DNA of 32,094 nt from Methanobacteriota archaeon (GTDB lineage: Archaea > Thermoplasmatota > Poseidoniia > Poseidoniales > Thalassarchaeaceae): NCBI GenBank assembly GCA_002725475.1, contig PBPH01000017.1, positions 1-32,094 of the forward strand. The letters are read 5' to 3'. Both the position numbers and the translations under genes were made by a program. Below the pieces are notes generated by a model. It made no database searches. It was not told the origin of the DNA and saw nothing but the letters and a program-made list of their open reading frames with translations. Below, in pieces: positions 10,609-32,094 of the stretch. Every line of letters begins with the position of its first letter. Position 1 is the stretch's first letter.

Positions 10609-11775
10609 CTAAATCAGTGCTCTTATGTCATGAAGGAATTCATCAGAGTCCCAACTAGAACCAACCCAAACAACCCGCTTTTGCCCATCGTGATCAACTA
10701 TGAATGTTACAGTGCTGTGACCTACGTCATAAGTTTCCTCTGCATGTTCGTTATGCTCACCATGCTCGCCGTGCTCATTCTCTGATACACATGACATTTG
10801 ATTATCACCATCCCATTCATAACCCTCATCACACATACAGTGGGCGCCAGCACCTTGGCCCATAACCCAACCATGTCCGTTGCACTGTTCGCTAGATGGT
10901 GTTGGTAGATTGGAAATATTCGAATTACTTGCAACCCAGGCTAGGTGTGGGTGATGTTCAATATCAACTGAATCAACTCCTACAGAACTTTCAACCCAAG
11001 TGTAGTTGGTGGTATCCCATGCATATAGGCTCCACCACCATGAAGAGTTGGAAGGCGCAACTCCTGAGATGTTTTCCATAAAATGCCCATGCTGGGATTC
11101 TGGTGCGGTGAAAGTAATTCCGTGCATGTTGAAGCCCTTTGTTGTTAAGTTCCATCCAGTAGCATTTTCAGGTAAATGAGTGCTATTTACTTCATATTCA
11201 TTTGTACTATTATCTGGCATCATAGTAACTAACGAATGCATCATTGAGTGGTCACCCGTGTCATGACCATCCATATGCATGCCGCCACTAACATGTAGAT
11301 CAATCATGGTGGTGTTAACTGCAATTCCCCAACCACTCCAGACTTCCTGAATCATGGTTAAATTCGTCGAGGTTAAATGTGGCCAATCATATCCATTGTC
11401 ATTGACATAGTCCGCCAGAACTTCTTGCGTATCTCGTAATGGATCAATGGTTATTGAAAGATAAACGACATCTTCTCCATACGAATCTCCCAACTCTTCT
11501 TTCATGTACTTCATGTTAGATTCAATTACTGGACATATGTCAGGACAATGAGTATAAGTGAATGCGACAACCACCACCTTTCCTTCAAAATCGGAGAGAG
11601 AAACATCATCTCCATTATGATCTGTTAGAGTAAAATCTGGGGCTTGTACGGGTGGGTGGTAAGGTTTCCCATTGAAATCGATATCATGGTGCCCATCACC
11701 CCCAATACAACCTGCAAAAATCAGTGCAGAACATAAGGTCAAAATCAAAACTCTTCGCATAACTAAATGGCCCAT
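10609..11775 (-). CDS. SCO1/SenC (PrrC) family copper chaperone-like lipoprotein with large internal insertion
   Basis: Lipobox FAGC; thioredoxin-fold Sco motif TYTHCPDICPVIESNM, then YLSITIDPLRDT, and C-terminal YDVGHSTVTFIVDHDGQKRVVW. The Cys pair and catalytic His are separated by far more than in a typical Sco protein. Start may be Met 6 (11760). Confidence 0.85.
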   Translation of the reverse strand: MGHLVMRRVLILTLCSALIFAGCIGGDGHHDIDFNGKPYHPPVQAPDFTLTDHNGDDVSLSDFEGKVVVVAFTYTHCPDICPVIESNMKYMKEELGDSYGEDVVYLSITIDPLRDTQEVLADYVNDNGYDWPHLTSTNLTMIQEVWSGWGIAVNTTMIDLHVSGGMHMDGHDTGDHSMMHSLVTMMPDNSTNEYEVNSTHLPENATGWNLTTKGFNMHGITFTAPESQHGHFMENISGVAPSNSSWWWSLYAWDTTNYTWVESSVGVDSVDIEHHPHLAWVASNSNISNLPTPSSEQCNGHGWVMGQGAGAHCMCDEGYEWDGDNQMSCVSENEHGEHGEHNEHAEETYDVGHSTVTFIVDHDGQKRVVWVGSSWDSDEFLHDIRALI

Positions 11776-11851
11776 TCCATTGTATAATATATTTTGTCGC
11801 CCCTGTTGTTACTGCACTTTCAAGAACGATGAATGATTCGGACCAACCGCT

Positions 11852-11934
11852 GCGGACGTCGCATAGCCTGGTATCGCGCCGGATTTGAAATCCGGTGACC
11901 TCGTGTCGCGGGAGTTCGAATCTCTCCGTCCGCG
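11852..11934 (+). tRNA. tRNA-Ser (anticodon TGA)
   Basis: Acceptor GCGGACG/CGTCCGC, anticodon stem CCGGA/TCCGG with loop TTTGAAA, long variable arm, T-arm GGGAGTTCGAATCTCTC. Confidence 0.92.
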
Positions 11935-11952
11935 CTTAATTTCGGATTTCAA

Positions 11953-12279
11953 TTAAAATCTACACCAAGCAGGTAATGAATCTGGTGCGCCTGGTGTGGT
12001 AATTGCAATGAAAACTATCATCAGTAAAATGAATACCCCGGGAAATAGTGCGGTTAATGTTAGAATATTGCTATCTTCTTCAAATCTAAGATGCATGAAG
12101 ACAAATGCAATCCCAAGGAATTTTATTGCTCCTATAGTTACAAGAATTAGAATAACCATCTCTTCAACAATCGCCCCTTGCACAGATGCAGCCACAGCTC
12201 CAACTTCAACAGCAGTCATAATCATCAACATTGCGAAATTTACATTGTAAGCATCTCTTCCTAGAATTTTATGACCCAT
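11953..12279 (-). CDS. Cytochrome c oxidase subunit IV-like small membrane protein
   Basis: Three TM segments, directly downstream of COX3; family-like sequence (NVNFAMLMIMTAVEVGAVA...LGIAFVFMHLRFE...). Confidence 0.75.
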   Translation of the reverse strand: MGHKILGRDAYNVNFAMLMIMTAVEVGAVAASVQGAIVEEMVILILVTIGAIKFLGIAFVFMHLRFEEDSNILTLTALFPGVFILLMIVFIAITTPGAPDSLPAWCRF

Positions 12280-12291
12280 CTTTTTTCCCCC

Positions 12292-13470
12292 TCAATACAG
12301 ATAAAATGCTGGGAACACCAACACCCAAACCAAATCAACAAAGTGCCAATAAATTCCGAAGTATTCGATAGATACTGCGTTAGTCGGAGAATATCCTCCT
12401 TTATGGGCTTTGTAAGTCATGTAAACAAGACCAATTATTCCACCAAACACGTGAGCCCCGTGCGTACCCGTGGCAACGTAAAACGTAGCAGCAGATAGAC
12501 GTAAATTAACATCAATATATTCGCCACCATGGCCAGCGCCCGCAAAGTGATACATTTCATTGTGGATTGTGTATCCATCGTCCAACAAACTAGGGGCATA
12601 GAACGGCCCAATGTTGAATCCAACAAACCATTCAATCAACTTAAGCACCAAGAAAAGAGTAGCTAGAATTAGGGTAGCGCCTAGATAATTCCTAATCTTT
12701 CTAGATCTTTCTTCATGATCTAAATCGGTACGATTTGCGGTCTTCAAAGCCAATACCACAGTGAAGGAAGAAACAATCAAAGCAAATGTATTGATAGCTC
12801 CAGGAACAAGAGTATCGGGGAATAGAACTAATGTCCATGATTCTGAATGAGAACCTGCAATGAAATAAGATGCGGGTACCCAACAAGCATCACCTGGTGA
12901 GAATGGCAATCCGTTTGAATAAGTAGCATGATTGTCTAGGATTGCTTGGCACGATTCAGTTCCCATACGATATCGAATATAAGTCGTAAATAAACTAGAG
13001 AAAACCATCATTTCAGACATCAAGAATATCCACATTCCAACTTTTCGAATATCGATATTTTGGAAAGGAGCGCCTGCAGATTTAGGTTCAAAATGGCCAT
13101 CAAAAGACATATCTTGACGCCACCATACTAGTAACCCAGAAATTATCACTGCAAATCCTACCAAGACTATTGGTAGGTAGTTTCCATTGAACACGGTGTC
13201 GTTTAAGTCATCATTCATTACAAAAGTAGAAGCGAATCCAAATAGGAATATTGTAATTCCAAATGACATGATAATTGGAGCCCAACTATTGTGTGGTGCG
13301 CCGTGTTCCCAATCATGAGGCCCCCATCCATTTCCGTGATGCCCGTAATGGTGATCGTCTCCATGGTCATCATCTGAAGCAGAGGGAGGGGCTCTCTTTC
13401 TTACACCATAATCTTTCATTTCCTCATTGATAATTTGACGAATTCGCTCTTCTGTTAAACTGGTACTCAA
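12292..13470 (-). CDS. Heme-copper oxidase subunit III with His-rich N-terminal extension
   Basis: KVGMWIFLMSEMMVFSSLFTTYIRYR, GTHGAHVFGGIIGLVYM, EYFGIYWHFVDLVWVLVFPAFYLY are subunit III hallmarks. Confidence 0.92.
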   Translation of the reverse strand: MSTSLTEERIRQIINEEMKDYGVRKRAPPSASDDDHGDDHHYGHHGNGWGPHDWEHGAPHNSWAPIIMSFGITIFLFGFASTFVMNDDLNDTVFNGNYLPIVLVGFAVIISGLLVWWRQDMSFDGHFEPKSAGAPFQNIDIRKVGMWIFLMSEMMVFSSLFTTYIRYRMGTESCQAILDNHATYSNGLPFSPGDACWVPASYFIAGSHSESWTLVLFPDTLVPGAINTFALIVSSFTVVLALKTANRTDLDHEERSRKIRNYLGATLILATLFLVLKLIEWFVGFNIGPFYAPSLLDDGYTIHNEMYHFAGAGHGGEYIDVNLRLSAATFYVATGTHGAHVFGGIIGLVYMTYKAHKGGYSPTNAVSIEYFGIYWHFVDLVWVLVFPAFYLY

Positions 13471-15797
13471 TTCATCCCCTCCTCATCGGGATCATTTGGA
13501 ACCATTAACCTAGTCAGCCAATTTTCTTTCTTCTCTGAACCATGTTCCTCATTTACATCAATTAGAGTTGGCAAGTCATCGAACGATGGCGTTGGTGGAG
13601 GTGATGAAACTAGCCATTCAAAGGACCATCCACCCCAAGGGTCTGCGGGGGCTTTCTTACCCTTTACAAGCGTCATCACCATGTTAGTGACCATGATTAG
13701 AGTTGAGAGACCGAAAATAAATGCATTAATTGTGATGAATGAATTCCAACTCGCCACCTCTGGGGGTAATGTTCCTACAACATCACTGTATTCGTTTGCT
13801 TGAATGAAATAGGTGTGATGTCTTCTAGTCATCCCCATTAATCCTAATTTATGCATTGGCCAAAATAATCCATTGTAAGAAATGAAGGCGATGAGGAAGT
13901 GAAGAAGTCCTAGCCTTTCATCCATCATCTTTCCAGTCATCTTAGGGTACCAGTAGTATATTGCTGCAAATAGTCCGAACACAGTTCCCCCTACAAGGAC
14001 ATAATGGAAGTGTGCTACTACAAAGTAAGTCTCGTGTAGGTGGATATCCATAGCAATTGACGGGAAGAACATCCCTGAAATCCCTCCTAGCGTGAATGTT
14101 ACTAAGAACCCGAGAGACCAGAGTGTGTGTGTACGATATACTAGAGAACCTCCATGCATAGTAGCCAACCAATTGAATATTTTTATGCCAGTTGGAACAG
14201 CTACAGCCATCGTAGTCAGCATCATCACGAATCTTAGCCATGGAGCCATTCCACTAGTTAGCATATGGTGGCCATAAACAATGAATGATACAAATCCAAT
14301 TCCAGCCATTGCGTAAACCATTGATTTGTATCCAAATATTGATCGTCGGGAACTTGTTGCAAGCACTTCAGAAACAATTCCAAATGCAGGAATAATTACA
14401 ACGTAAACTTCAGGATGTCCAAAGTACCAGAATAGGTGACTCCAAAGAAGTGGGTCACCGCCAGCACTTGTGTTGAAGAAAGCGGTAGCAATTGTTCTAT
14501 CAAGGAATGCTTCGATTAAACCAATTCCAAATGCTGGGATTGAGATAAATAGGCACATCACAGAAACAAAAACTGACCAAGTAAACAATGGCATTTGCAT
14601 CCAACCCATACTAGGGGTCCTCATGGCACAAATTGTAGTGATGAAGTTAATTCCAGCAAGTGTTGAAGATGCAACTAACATGAGTTGCCCAGCAAGCCAA
14701 AATGTAGTTCCTGGGTGACTTGACACCCAAGATGTAATTGGTTGATAACCAGTCCAACCTACATCCGCTCCAGTTCCGGAGAAAACACCACACAATATTA
14801 GAATAGAACCAGCAGGATTGAGCCAAAAGGCCATTGCGTTAATTCTAGGGAAAGCCAAATCCCTAGCTCCAATTTGAAGAGGTACAATCCAATTGGCAAA
14901 ACCATTGATTAAAGGCATGGCAGCGAGGAAAATCATCACAGTACCGTGTAAAGTAAAGAATTGGTTGTATTGGTCCTGAGTCAAGAAATCATTGCCCGGG
15001 ACTGATAGTTGAATTCGAATCATCAGGGCTATTACACCACCCACTAGGAAATAGAATAGACCAGCCACAAAGTATAGCGTTCCTACCTTTTTATGGTCTG
15101 TGCTAGTAAGCCATTCGGAAATCCATGGTGCAAAAGCACTCCAACTAAAAGACTCAGGGTTAGCGCGATAAAACACATACGCCACACTAATCAACAACAT
15201 TAGTGACACGAGTAGAATGGCAGAGAATAGGACAGTAATGCCATCGGCGCTTGAGGTTGTAGTTTCACCAACTCCTCCAGGGGCTCCCATTACAAATTGA
15301 GATTGTGCCCAATGGTCACCATCACCGGGCGAAGCATCACCATCCACTGAATTGACTGTTAATTGGAAATTTGCTGAACCGCTACTTGGGGCAGTCCAAT
15401 CTACTGACCAGTTCATTTGGTCATTTCCAGTTGTAGTGTGGGTAAGTTGGCCAGCAATCATTTGAGTTGAGTCATCTAAAATTGTCAAAGTACCCGAAGT
15501 GGCTACGAGATTGAACCCGCCAGTATTTTGCCTTTCAGCAATAAATTCTGAGCCCGGACCCCCCGTAAATCCAAAAGAAAATGTGTAAGTTTCTCCAGGG
15601 TTATATTCTGATGGTAATGCACTGCCATTTCCTAGTGTCATGAAAGGCGACACATCACTACTGGGGGAGCCGCTGTGACATGTACATCCGGAGTCAACAT
15701 TGTTGATTCCTCCACTTCTAGCTTGGAGACTAGGTGCTAACATTAGTGAGGCTACTAGAAGAGCAGTAATTGCAAGTATTTTCACATTCACTTTCAT
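13467..15797 (-). CDS. Heme-copper oxidase subunit I with N-terminal extracytoplasmic domain
   Basis: Core: WLTSTDHKKVGTLYF, GARDLAFPRINAMAFWL, WFYFGHPEVYVVIIPAFG region, VYGHHMLTSGM, VPTGIKIFNW, HETYFVVAHFHYVLVGG. N-terminal ~190 aa is signal peptide plus a separate domain containing SGCTCHSG. Confidence 0.93.
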   Translation of the reverse strand: MKVNVKILAITALLVASLMLAPSLQARSGGINNVDSGCTCHSGSPSSDVSPFMTLGNGSALPSEYNPGETYTFSFGFTGGPGSEFIAERQNTGGFNLVATSGTLTILDDSTQMIAGQLTHTTTGNDQMNWSVDWTAPSSGSANFQLTVNSVDGDASPGDGDHWAQSQFVMGAPGGVGETTTSSADGITVLFSAILLVSLMLLISVAYVFYRANPESFSWSAFAPWISEWLTSTDHKKVGTLYFVAGLFYFLVGGVIALMIRIQLSVPGNDFLTQDQYNQFFTLHGTVMIFLAAMPLINGFANWIVPLQIGARDLAFPRINAMAFWLNPAGSILILCGVFSGTGADVGWTGYQPITSWVSSHPGTTFWLAGQLMLVASSTLAGINFITTICAMRTPSMGWMQMPLFTWSVFVSVMCLFISIPAFGIGLIEAFLDRTIATAFFNTSAGGDPLLWSHLFWYFGHPEVYVVIIPAFGIVSEVLATSSRRSIFGYKSMVYAMAGIGFVSFIVYGHHMLTSGMAPWLRFVMMLTTMAVAVPTGIKIFNWLATMHGGSLVYRTHTLWSLGFLVTFTLGGISGMFFPSIAMDIHLHETYFVVAHFHYVLVGGTVFGLFAAIYYWYPKMTGKMMDERLGLLHFLIAFISYNGLFWPMHKLGLMGMTRRHHTYFIQANEYSDVVGTLPPEVASWNSFITINAFIFGLSTLIMVTNMVMTLVKGKKAPADPWGGWSFEWLVSSPPPTPSFDDLPTLIDVNEEHGSEKKENWLTRLMVPNDPDEEGMN

Positions 15798-27492: not shown

Positions 27493-28083
27493 ATGGCGAA
27501 GAAGTCGGGGTCAGCCAAGAAGAGGTCTGAGGCAGCTAAGAAGGCAGCAGCAACGCGTAAGAAAAACGCTGCAGCTAAAGCGAAAGCAGAAGCAGAAGCA
27601 GAGGCAGCCGCTAAGAAAAAGATTGCAGCAGCAAAAAGAGCCGCTACAATCGCTGCTAAGAAGGAAGCCGCAGAGGCTGCTGAGAAAGCAGCAAAACGCG
27701 CCGCAGCCGCTAAGAAAGCAGCAGCCACGCGTGCTGCTAAGAAGAAAGCAGCAGAGGCCCAAGCTGCTGCAAAAGCCAAAGCCGCAGCCGAGAAAGCAGC
27801 TATGGAAGCCAAGAGACGCCCAGGCCTAGTCTTCGCTAGCGAACAAGCAGATCCAAATTTATCTAACAAAATGAGGGCTAGGGCAACTACTTCAACAGCA
27901 GCCTCGCATGTTGAAGCCAAATCTGAAATTTCTAAAGTTATGAATAAACCTGTGAAGTCTAGCCGAGGTGCAAAAAGCACTGCAGATAAGCGTAAAAAGG
28001 CATTTCATAAGCGTTGGATAGAGGGTGCCAGCCCATCTACTGCTGAAGAATATGGTTGGGCCAGAGAATTTCTTAATTCCTGA
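27493..28083 (+). CDS. Lys/Ala-rich histone H1-like basic protein
   Basis: MAKKSGSAKKRSEAAKKAAATRKKNAAAKAKAEAEAEAAAKKKIAAAKRAA... ~110 aa of K/A/R/E low complexity followed by a basic C-terminal part. Confidence 0.72.
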   Translation: MAKKSGSAKKRSEAAKKAAATRKKNAAAKAKAEAEAEAAAKKKIAAAKRAATIAAKKEAAEAAEKAAKRAAAAKKAAATRAAKKKAAEAQAAAKAKAAAEKAAMEAKRRPGLVFASEQADPNLSNKMRARATTSTAASHVEAKSEISKVMNKPVKSSRGAKSTADKRKKAFHKRWIEGASPSTAEEYGWAREFLNS

Positions 28084-28313: not shown

Positions 28314-29360
28314 TTAATCAATATCACTGAAAATATCAGTTTCTTGTGCTCTACGATAGACTTCTCTAAGAGTTTGATCTGTAATATCTAGATATATTCT
28401 AGTGGTGCTAATATCAGCATGCCCCATTAATCTCTGAATACTAACTATATCCGCCCCCCTCTCAAGTAAGCCTGTGGCGAAATTGTGTCTCAGTGTGTGA
28501 GGGGAAAGCCTGCTTCTCGGGATTTCAGCTTCGTCAGCAAGTTTATCCATCATCTTCTGCACATTTCTTTGGGTTAGTCTATGTCCTCGACTATTAATGA
28601 ATAGAGCCTCATCTTCCTTAGAATTTCGAGATTTTTTGTGTAGCATCCATTTCTCAATCACATCTTTACTTCTCATTGTAAAGAGTACTTTCCTGTCCTT
28701 ATTTCCCTTACCTGACCATACAGTAGCAGAGAAATCATTCAAATCAACATCAGACAAATTCAATGCACATAGTTCTCCCACTCTCAGGCCAGTTTCTAGT
28801 AAGACCACAACTATGACTTCAGCAAGAGGGTTTTCTGATTGCCTGCAAATTTTAAGTAAATTATTCAATTCTTGGTTAGTTAATGTACGGGGAAGGCGCT
28901 TACTCTTTTGTGGCCTTACAACCCAATCTGGCACCGAATGTCCAATCCATTTCAAAAGGTGCGATATGGCGGCTAACCTTGCGTTAATTGTAGCAGGCTT
29001 CAAGTGTGAAATTGATTGTAACCAAATGTCAAGCCTACCATTGTTAGGATCAAGGTACCCAACGGATTCAATCATGGTCATCTCTTCAGCATCCTTATTG
29101 GTCAAATTTTCTTCATAAGGTAACAGTGTAGTTAGTAATTGTCTTGCAGCGATATAATAGGATCTAGATGTATGACTACTTTTCTTTTCAGCCTTCAACT
29201 GCTGCTCATAACACGCAAGAATTGGTAATTCTTTGAGTCGAACAAGTCTAGTTGGTAATGTGAAACCATGCCCAATAATTTCGTCGCTAAAACGCTCTAG
29301 ATACTGCCTTTGGCTAGAGTCAGCCCAAGGCTGTCCATTTTCATCTTTTTCTGGTAACAT
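28314..29360 (-). CDS. Tyrosine recombinase / integrase (XerC/D, XerA-like)
   Basis: LLETGLRVGELCALNLSDVDL (Arg I), SPHTLRHNFATGLLERGADIVSIQRLMGHADISTTRIY (H-x-x-R...H...Y), with N-terminal SAM-like domain. Confidence 0.92.
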   Translation of the reverse strand: MLPEKDENGQPWADSSQRQYLERFSDEIIGHGFTLPTRLVRLKELPILACYEQQLKAEKKSSHTSRSYYIAARQLLTTLLPYEENLTNKDAEEMTMIESVGYLDPNNGRLDIWLQSISHLKPATINARLAAISHLLKWIGHSVPDWVVRPQKSKRLPRTLTNQELNNLLKICRQSENPLAEVIVVVLLETGLRVGELCALNLSDVDLNDFSATVWSGKGNKDRKVLFTMRSKDVIEKWMLHKKSRNSKEDEALFINSRGHRLTQRNVQKMMDKLADEAEIPRSRLSPHTLRHNFATGLLERGADIVSIQRLMGHADISTTRIYLDITDQTLREVYRRAQETDIFSDID

Positions 29361-29506: not shown

Positions 29507-30712
29507 TTAGAAAAAATCACTACTAAATTCCATAGTGGATGGATTGACATTTTCTTCATTGAGGGCTTGAGTTAGCCAAGGCTCAAGTTGGCGGTGTATT
29601 TTGTCAATTTCACCATAGCAAATGATTTCGTCCCCTCTCCTCAGAGTAAAAGTCCGCCTTGGTTTCCAAATATGGCTTCCTTCACGTGCTATTGCGAAAA
29701 CCACCTGTTCATTGATTTCCGTGAAAACGTCACCAATTTGTTTTCCATTTAGCACGGGATGTCGATCAATGGAAACGCTGACAACCCCGTGGTCTGGCCT
29801 ACTACGCAGTAATTGATCAATATCTGTTGTACTAAATCCTTGATTAGCAATACAATGTTCAATGATTGCTCCTGCAACATTCACTCCAGAAGCGGCTTCA
29901 ATTCCTTCAAGCCCCGGTGATGAATTAACCTCTAGCACCAGCGGCCCTCTATCACTTTCCAATAAATCAACACCAGCAACATCGAGATTTAACAACCGTG
30001 CAGCACGAGTGGCAACCCTACCGTATTCCTCTGGCAAATCTATTTTTTCTACTCGGCCATTTAGGTGGAAATTAGAACGGAATTCATTTCCTCGAGAAAT
30101 TCTTCTCATAGCAGCCACAACCTTCCCCCCAACTACTAACACACGTACATCTCGGCCATGACTTTCAGCGATGTATTCCTGAACTAGGACGTGATGCCCT
30201 TCTGATAGTAATTTGTAAGTCAACTCTCTTGCTCTATCTTCAGAATTAACTAGAAACACACCACTACCTTGTGTTCCTTCTGTAACTTTAATCACGATTG
30301 GCATTCCACCTACTTGATTCAAAGCCCTCTCAACATCTTGCCATGTCCGAACATAACAAGTAGTTGGTACGGGTATTCTGTTTTTTGTTAGAAGTTGTGT
30401 GGCATGTAATTTGTCTCTACTTCGGCTAATCCCATCACCACTATTAGCAACATAAATTCCCAATCTCTCAAATTGTCTGATTAAAGCAACTCCGTGGTGA
30501 GTTATTGAATATCCAATTCGAGGAATAACTGCATCTACTTCAACAGGCCATCCTGAATTGAGAATTCGAGGTTTATCATTGCCTACAGTAATACTCAGTC
30601 GCATAGGATCTAGAACTTCAACGTAGCAATCACGCTTCTCAGCTTCTTCAACTAGTCGTCTAGTACTGTACAAACGCGGCCCTCGAGAAAGTATAGCCAA
30701 ACGTACAGACAT
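29507..30712 (-). CDS. RimK-type ATP-grasp ligase fused to C-terminal RCK_C/TrkA_C domain
   Basis: ATP-grasp: PIVIKVTEGTQGSGVFLV, VQEYIAESHGRDVRVLVVGGKVVAAMRRIS, GPLVLEVNSSPGLEGIE; C-terminus HPVLNGKQIGDVFTEINEQVVFAIAREGSHIWKPRRTFTLRRGDEIICYGEIDKIHRQL matches the RCK_C pattern. Start at internal Met 20. Confidence 0.87.
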   Translation of the reverse strand: MSVRLAILSRGPRLYSTRRLVEEAEKRDCYVEVLDPMRLSITVGNDKPRILNSGWPVEVDAVIPRIGYSITHHGVALIRQFERLGIYVANSGDGISRSRDKLHATQLLTKNRIPVPTTCYVRTWQDVERALNQVGGMPIVIKVTEGTQGSGVFLVNSEDRARELTYKLLSEGHHVLVQEYIAESHGRDVRVLVVGGKVVAAMRRISRGNEFRSNFHLNGRVEKIDLPEEYGRVATRAARLLNLDVAGVDLLESDRGPLVLEVNSSPGLEGIEAASGVNVAGAIIEHCIANQGFSTTDIDQLLRSRPDHGVVSVSIDRHPVLNGKQIGDVFTEINEQVVFAIAREGSHIWKPRRTFTLRRGDEIICYGEIDKIHRQLEPWLTQALNEENVNPSTMEFSSDFF

Positions 30713-30874
30713 GGAGCGGCCGTGACACCAACCATTTTTGAGTGCTGTGGATTTAATTCCCACCCCCAATCTTAATTTTTCTGTGTTTTTTCAACATATA
30801 TTCAATATTCACTGTTGATTTGAACAAATCTCAATTTGCGGCGCGTTCATAATCAAACCCGCACTGCCACTTTC

Positions 30875-32094
30875 ATGCAAGCAGGCCCATCAGGACCCCC
30901 CAGTGCAGGCCCTTCCGGGCCGCCTGCCTCAGGACCTTCTGGCCCACCGTCAGGACCTTCTGGCCCACCATCAGGACCTTCTGGCCCACCATCAGGACCT
31001 TCTGGCCCACCATCAGGACCTTCTGGCCCACCTACAGTAAAGGGGCCACCTTCAAGTAGAGTAAAGGGCCCTCCAAAAAAGTCGCTGGCTACTCCCTTTT
31101 CTGATAAATCAGATATGAACGAGGGCGCTTTTGATAACCTCGCAGAACAAAATGTAGTTCGTCAGAAAGAACTAGATCGTCGAGAAAAAGCAGCAGAATT
31201 GAAGTCGTTGAAAAACAATAAGAGAAACAATGTGATTCTAGTGCTTCTATTTATGGTGGTATTTGGTGTGGCTGCTCTTTGGCCAATTACTTACGGCGAT
31301 GTGTCAAACAATCCACATGAATTTAGTACTGAACAGAATATCATAGATCGCAATAACCCAGAACATCCTGCTGCTTGGGATAAAGACGATAGGGGCTTGA
31401 TGGAATCTAAGATATGGGATGGAAATAGTGAATTTTCAGGCTCATTCCAGCGTGATTTGATTCTTCCCGGCCTCCCATTGGATGTCGATGGAGTTACCAC
31501 CATTCCAGTAGAAGTTAGGCTGGTTAGTTATCGCCTTGATGGTTCAGATACTGGTTTTAGAATTGCCCTATTCACTTCAACTTGTGATGAAATGATGGGT
31601 AAATCAATGGACACTTTATCAGATCGTTATCGCTATTCATCGGTCACTCCTATGTTGATTGGTACAGAAGTGACCGTTGAGTTTGAAGTTCCTCCTGGGA
31701 GGTATTGCCTTGTTTTTGCATATGAAACTCCACCATCAACTCCTGGCTTCCGAGCGACCATAGATGCAGAAGTTACTGCACATTGGAATCAACCAATCTT
31801 TGCCCCTTTGTCAGGGATAATGGGATTGCTAGCAATTTTCGCATCTATTGGGGCTCACAAGGCAGGTAAGGCTTGGAAAGCAGTTGCTCAACCAGATAAG
31901 CCAGATCGCCAGACGACTGAGGATGAGGTGCTTGAGCAGGCCGAAGAAGAACGAGGGGCAATGTCTGAATCAAGTGACGCCGAAGTTGAAGCGCCGACTG
32001 AAGAAGCACCAACTGAAGAAGCGCCAACTGAAGAAGCACCAACTGAAGAAGCACCAACTGAAGAAGCACCAACTGAAGAAGCACCAACTGAAGA
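30875..32094 (+). CDS. Membrane protein with Gly/Pro/Ser-rich repeat N-terminus, extracytoplasmic central domain, second TM and EAPTE-repeat tail (3' end beyond window)
   Basis: Open frame MQAGPSGPPSAGPSGPPASGPSGPP...NNVILVLLFMVVFGVAALWPITYG...PIFAPLSGIMGLLAIFASIGAHKAGK...EAPTEEAPTEE; not in the track because no stop lies in the window. Confidence 0.78.
   Translation, partial: MQAGPSGPPSAGPSGPPASGPSGPPSGPSGPPSGPSGPPSGPSGPPSGPSGPPTVKGPPSSRVKGPPKKSLATPFSDKSDMNEGAFDNLAEQNVVRQKELDRREKAAELKSLKNNKRNNVILVLLFMVVFGVAALWPITYGDVSNNPHEFSTEQNIIDRNNPEHPAAWDKDDRGLMESKIWDGNSEFSGSFQRDLILPGLPLDVDGVTTIPVEVRLVSYRLDGSDTGFRIALFTSTCDEMMGKSMDTLSDRYRYSSVTPMLIGTEVTVEFEVPPGRYCLVFAYETPPSTPGFRATIDAEVTAHWNQPIFAPLSGIMGLLAIFASIGAHKAGKAWKAVAQPDKPDRQTTEDEVLEQAEEERGAMSESSDAEVEAPTEEAPTEEAPTEEAPTEEAPTEEAPTEEAPTE
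30929..31033 (+). repeat. Tandem direct repeat, five 21-bp units (TCAGGACCTTCTGGCCCACCN), encoding SGPSGPP
   Basis: Units at 30929, 30950, 30971, 30992 and 31013, nearly identical at nucleotide level. Confidence 0.95.
31988..32094 (+). repeat. Tandem direct repeat of 15-bp unit (GAAGCACCAACTGAA), encoding EAPTE, at least seven copies, truncated by window end
   Basis: Units every 15 bp from 31988 to the last base, with only A/G third-position variation (GCG/GCA, CCG/CCA). Confidence 0.95.

Follow-up and report, generated by a model that had tools for sequence, protein, structure and literature searches.

An RCK_C (TrkA_C) domain is fused to a complete RimK ligase core in a protein of about 401 amino acid residues, encoded on the minus strand at positions 29507-30712 of the window, that is, the whole stretch of 32,094 nucleotides that was analyzed. 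The fusion is confirmed as real, far beyond chance, and is found across the order Poseidoniales. Judged by its sequence, the protein belongs to the RimK family of alpha-L-glutamate-type ligases and has an ATP-grasp core that is intact; on our best reading, its RCK_C domain would mediate dimerization or control, probably with a neighboring membrane protein. Most known roles of RCK_C domains lie in regulating potassium transport and one family of transcription factors; Poseidoniales (Marine Group II) rank with the most abundant marine archaeal groups. The conserved, order-wide fusion suggests that protein glutamylation is regulated in Poseidoniales; a clade whose gene, at the same locus, has lost the domain provides a natural comparison, and the membrane neighbor, found in the same genera, is a concrete candidate partner.

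Gene Organization and RimK Core

The open frame (29507-30769, minus strand) could begin as far out as position 30769, but the likely start is the ATG at 30712, since the orthologues begin at the motif M(T/S)xRLAIL; this start codon is common to them. From the N-terminus, the protein shows a Rimk_N pre-ATP-grasp domain (residues 4-95, positions 30428-30703; PF18030, E 8e-28), a RimK ATP-grasp domain (residues 99-285, positions 29858-30418; PF08443, E 6e-55), a linker (residues 286-304, positions 29801-29857) with the motif FS.VDLDQLLR conserved in the alignment, and the RCK_C domain (residues ~305-375, positions 29588-29800), all on the minus strand. The linker corresponds to a low-confidence stretch of the structure model. 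The C-terminal peptide cited in the preliminary description is present on this strand, in frame with the complete RimK core.

Both core domains score above the curated Pfam cut-offs, with 97 bits for Rimk_N (cut-off 26.4) and 186 bits for the RimK ATP-grasp domain (cut-off 21), and the core also exceeds the cut-off of TIGR00768 (242 versus 143 bits). The closest NCBIfam equivalogue model is that of RimK (PRK10446.1, 266 bits, below its cut-off of 331), ahead of LysX, MptN and CofF, all of which are likewise under their own cut-offs; nothing was found in support of the osmolyte or cofactor synthesis that had been suggested. Residues K101, K142, R190, R203, R212/S213/N214, D249, E261 and N263 are invariant in 19 orthologues, and the invariant residues (K101, K142, D249, E261 and N263 among them) agree with the alignment to Pseudomonas RimK (PDB: 7qyr), which Foldseek matched to the core with E 3e-35. 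Conserved core residues of this kind have ATP- and metal-binding roles in ATP-grasp enzymes. To our knowledge, S6, the substrate of bacterial RimK, is not expected in archaea.

The window's genome also contains a second, stand-alone RimK paralogue (G000:C82:11097-11951), with 45% identity. It further encodes, away from the window's contig, a Zn_protease of PF05618 related to RimB (G000:C83:12809-13192). This protease was rejected as a partner of the fusion, as it is patchy (four of 18 genomes) and not tied to the fused form.

Evidence for the RCK_C Domain

The preliminary description had read the C-terminal segment as an RCK_C domain from its pattern. In profile searches, 13 of 19 orthologues match TrkA_C at E<=0.1 (best 1.4e-8), and the window copy taken alone reaches E 0.16 and 12.3 bits (Pfam cut-off 27); its match to Castor_Poll_mid, an RCK region, is likewise under the cut-off (E 1e-3). 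A 78-position profile of the C-terminal region searched against PDB sequences retrieved 4xtt (1.4e-5), 1vct (7e-5), KhtT 7agv (3e-4) and KtrC 6i8v (5e-4), the best match being annotated as a "putative potassium transport protein", the RCK_C domain of S. aureus KtrA. The isolated domain was modeled with a pLDDT of 90.9, and the best 50 PDB matches listed by Foldseek for this model were all RCK-domain proteins, including MthK, PH0236, TrkA TM1088 and BusR. The doubt raised by the single window copy is removed by the orthologue matches, the profile search against PDB, and the model with its fold search; with the Pfam scores of the core, these results bear out the RimK-RCK_C architecture.

Five positions of the RCK_C signature (G, R, P, D, G) are retained. 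Beyond this general signature, the Poseidoniales fusion family keeps, without exception, a P at position 15, a W at position 45 and a Y at position 62 of the domain alignment. Comparison of six close pairs gave a pN of 0.08-0.23 and a pS of 0.80-0.98 for the domain, which is therefore translated and constrained; in the same pairs, the last 20 residues of the protein are less constrained than the domain. An assembly artefact or chimaeric ORF is ruled out by the low pN/pS and by the presence of the fusion in many independent genomes.

Distribution and Evolution of the Fusion

A genome search for architectures combining ATP-grasp and RCK_C, which the preliminary description had proposed, found the fusion order-wide in Poseidoniales and none outside the order in a limited library comprising a scan of 293 genomes of the phylum, phages, plasmids and viral contigs. 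Matches from outside Poseidoniales in the phylum scan were mostly ORFs of about 190-270 residues, as expected for TrkA-type proteins. The RimK and RCK_C families are both already known; a full-text literature search found no paper describing their combination.

Among the sampled Poseidoniaceae genomes for which a match was listed, almost every one carries the fusion. The clear exception is G190 (genus g18), whose short RimK ends at a real stop; in a second genome (G157), the RimK match is cut by the contig end. The window's family shows the fusion in four of 11 genera (g1, g2, g4 and g9), and RimK without the domain in the other seven (g3, g5-g8, g10 and g11). These short forms have open frames of mostly 325-380 residues, in which the match stops near residue 306, and they hold the same syntenic place, between a SAP-domain membrane protein with ParA and a Xer recombinase; neither an RCK_C remnant nor a separate RCK_C gene was found at this locus in the short-form genera. 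Genome size tends to be lower with the short form (about 1.1-1.6 Mb versus up to 2.2 Mb).

When the RimK cores were placed in a quick tree, the family's 13 short members grouped as a single clade (SH-aLRT 100) nested within the fused ones, and therefore the parsimonious reading is that RCK_C was gained in the ancestor of Poseidoniales and lost once in the window's family and once in g18. A third family of the class has a related RimK that is likewise short. Of 17 genomes tested, which included both fused and short forms, 16 gave a TrkA_N match, and most of these have a TrkA-like protein about 420-500 residues long; the fusion therefore does not replace TrkA.

One genome of genus g4 (G022) has two copies of the whole locus (L145 and L146, on contigs C41 and C9), one g4-like and the other g9-like, each with its own membrane protein, which points to horizontal transfer or assembly contamination.

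Neighboring Membrane Protein and Locus

The divergent neighbor of the fused gene (30875-32094, plus strand, running past the window end) encodes an uncharacterized membrane protein. Two helices are predicted in it, with an N-in/C-in topology, and their flanks carry positive charge on the side presumed to be cytoplasmic. Its exposed loop contains two invariant cysteines, and no Pfam match above cut-off was obtained. Collagen-like GPSGPP repeats and a tail of APTEE repeats were observed in this protein and its orthologues, and the C-terminal motif is not the same in the two families.

A profile search of 148 genomes of the window's family found the membrane protein in 38; every one of these belongs to g1, g2, g4 or g9, and the remaining seven genera gave no match. 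Wherever a locus of the L002-L081 set extends far enough upstream, the membrane protein gene adjoins the fusion; the four loci which lack it each have a contig end close upstream of the gene. The Poseidoniaceae exception G190 lost the domain and kept the membrane protein. The link between domain and membrane protein, at the level of genera, amounts to one evolutionary event plus synteny, because their absences coincide on a single branch, whose genomes are also inclined to be small. The conserved synteny also takes in ParA and the Xer-type tyrosine recombinase (28314-29360, minus strand; PF00589, E 2.6e-42), the downstream neighbor in most fused and short loci, and therefore neighborhood alone is no proof of partnership.

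Other features were also observed. In many Poseidoniales, the RimK locus is adjoined by an ATPase of the ParA type and by a small conserved protein (L004:824-2309). Within the window, positions 27493-28083 encode a lysine- and alanine-rich, histone-tail-like protein, and a cytochrome oxidase cluster with COX1, COX3 and SCO1/SenC lies at 10609-15797.

Proposed Role of the RCK_C Domain

We give about even chances to a RimK ligase whose RCK_C domain, gained in the ancestor of the order, acts as a regulatory and docking module. In this model, the RCK_C domains would pair across the RimK oligomer, as they do elsewhere, and the pair would form the module; binding of a small ligand, or contact with the cytoplasmic tails of the membrane neighbor, could then shift the dimer, and this shift would switch or localize the addition of glutamate to a protein C-terminus. 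Beyond the architecture and the co-occurrence, we infer every step. The earlier term "ligand-gated peptide ligase" is a reasonable inference. A bolder form of the model is membrane-coupled glutamylation in Poseidoniales, where the two-helix protein would signal via RCK_C to the attached ligase; this would be the first post-translational ligase to come under the control of a regulatory domain from ion channels. We hold this bolder form to be rather doubtful.

The domain might instead be a structural dimerization module which sets the oligomeric state of RimK and binds no ligand, a possible but somewhat unlikely explanation. RCK_C domains dimerize widely, as in BusR (PMC8517857), the core without RCK_C suffices for seven genera at the same locus, and no ligand is evident; the family-specific invariant P, W and Y nevertheless hint at a specific surface or pocket. 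A reading in which the membrane protein serves as the substrate, with the fused enzyme docking on it and glutamylating its cytoplasmic C-terminal tail, appears improbable. It would fit the presence and absence of both proteins in the same genera, the predicted cytoplasmic C-terminus, the acidic residues which end many tails, and the addition of glutamate to protein C-termini by RimK (PMC7343187). However, tail sequences differ between families and not all are acidic-ended, and RimK is kept in genomes without the membrane protein, where another substrate must therefore exist.

The least probable of these readings, to which we give very little weight, is a sensor of c-di-AMP, or another cyclic dinucleotide, gating RimK. 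RCK_C domains are known to serve as c-di-AMP receptors (PMC10243994, PMC8517857), KtrA 4xtt is the best PDB match of the profile, and a DAC-domain protein (open frames of about 282-314 residues) was found in 13 of 18 Poseidoniaceae genomes tested. However, no DAC-domain cyclase was detected in 60 genomes of the window's family, 11 of them near-complete, in a search positive for 11 of 14 control genomes, and the five Poseidoniaceae genomes without DAC belong to g13 and g17, genera that keep the fusion. Furthermore, the polar contacts of S. aureus KtrA with c-di-AMP, which we take to be D167, R169 and N175, are aligned (HMM alignment to 4xtt) to a gap, T and V in the window, and mostly to a gap, K/N/P and P in Poseidoniaceae. 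This list of contact residues is partly supported by PMC13022847. As the family lacks DAC in these genomes and the presumed contact positions are not conserved, c-di-AMP is very unlikely as ligand in the window's organism, and its earlier suggestion in that role was rejected there. The regulatory and docking module is retained as the preferred reading.

Comparison with Known Systems

RimK, the ribosomal protein S6--L-glutamate ligase of E. coli and Pseudomonas (PDB: 4iwx, 5zct and 7qyr), has the Rimk_N and ATP-grasp core and the catalytic motifs in common with the Poseidoniales protein, whose core shows 45-48% identity with Pseudomonas RimK when the folds are aligned; the Poseidoniales protein differs in its extra conserved RCK_C domain and in scoring under the NCBIfam RimK equivalogue cut-off. 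In the RimABK system of Pseudomonas fluorescens, RimK activity is altered by the second messenger c-di-GMP and by partner proteins (PMC7343187), although these regulators are separate from the enzyme and the solved Pseudomonas RimK has no RCK_C domain. The RCK_C domains of KtrA, TrkA, MthK, KhtT and CpaA resemble the Poseidoniales C-terminal domain in sequence and fold, whereas the latter is joined to a soluble ligase instead of to RCK_N or a transporter. BusR, a GntR-type regulator, differs in its DNA-binding effector, its ligand c-di-AMP and the coiled coil between its domains; like the Poseidoniales protein, it has a soluble effector domain borne by RCK_C, and its RCK_C dimer is an allosteric switch, rotation of which frees the autoinhibited effector domain (PMC8517857).
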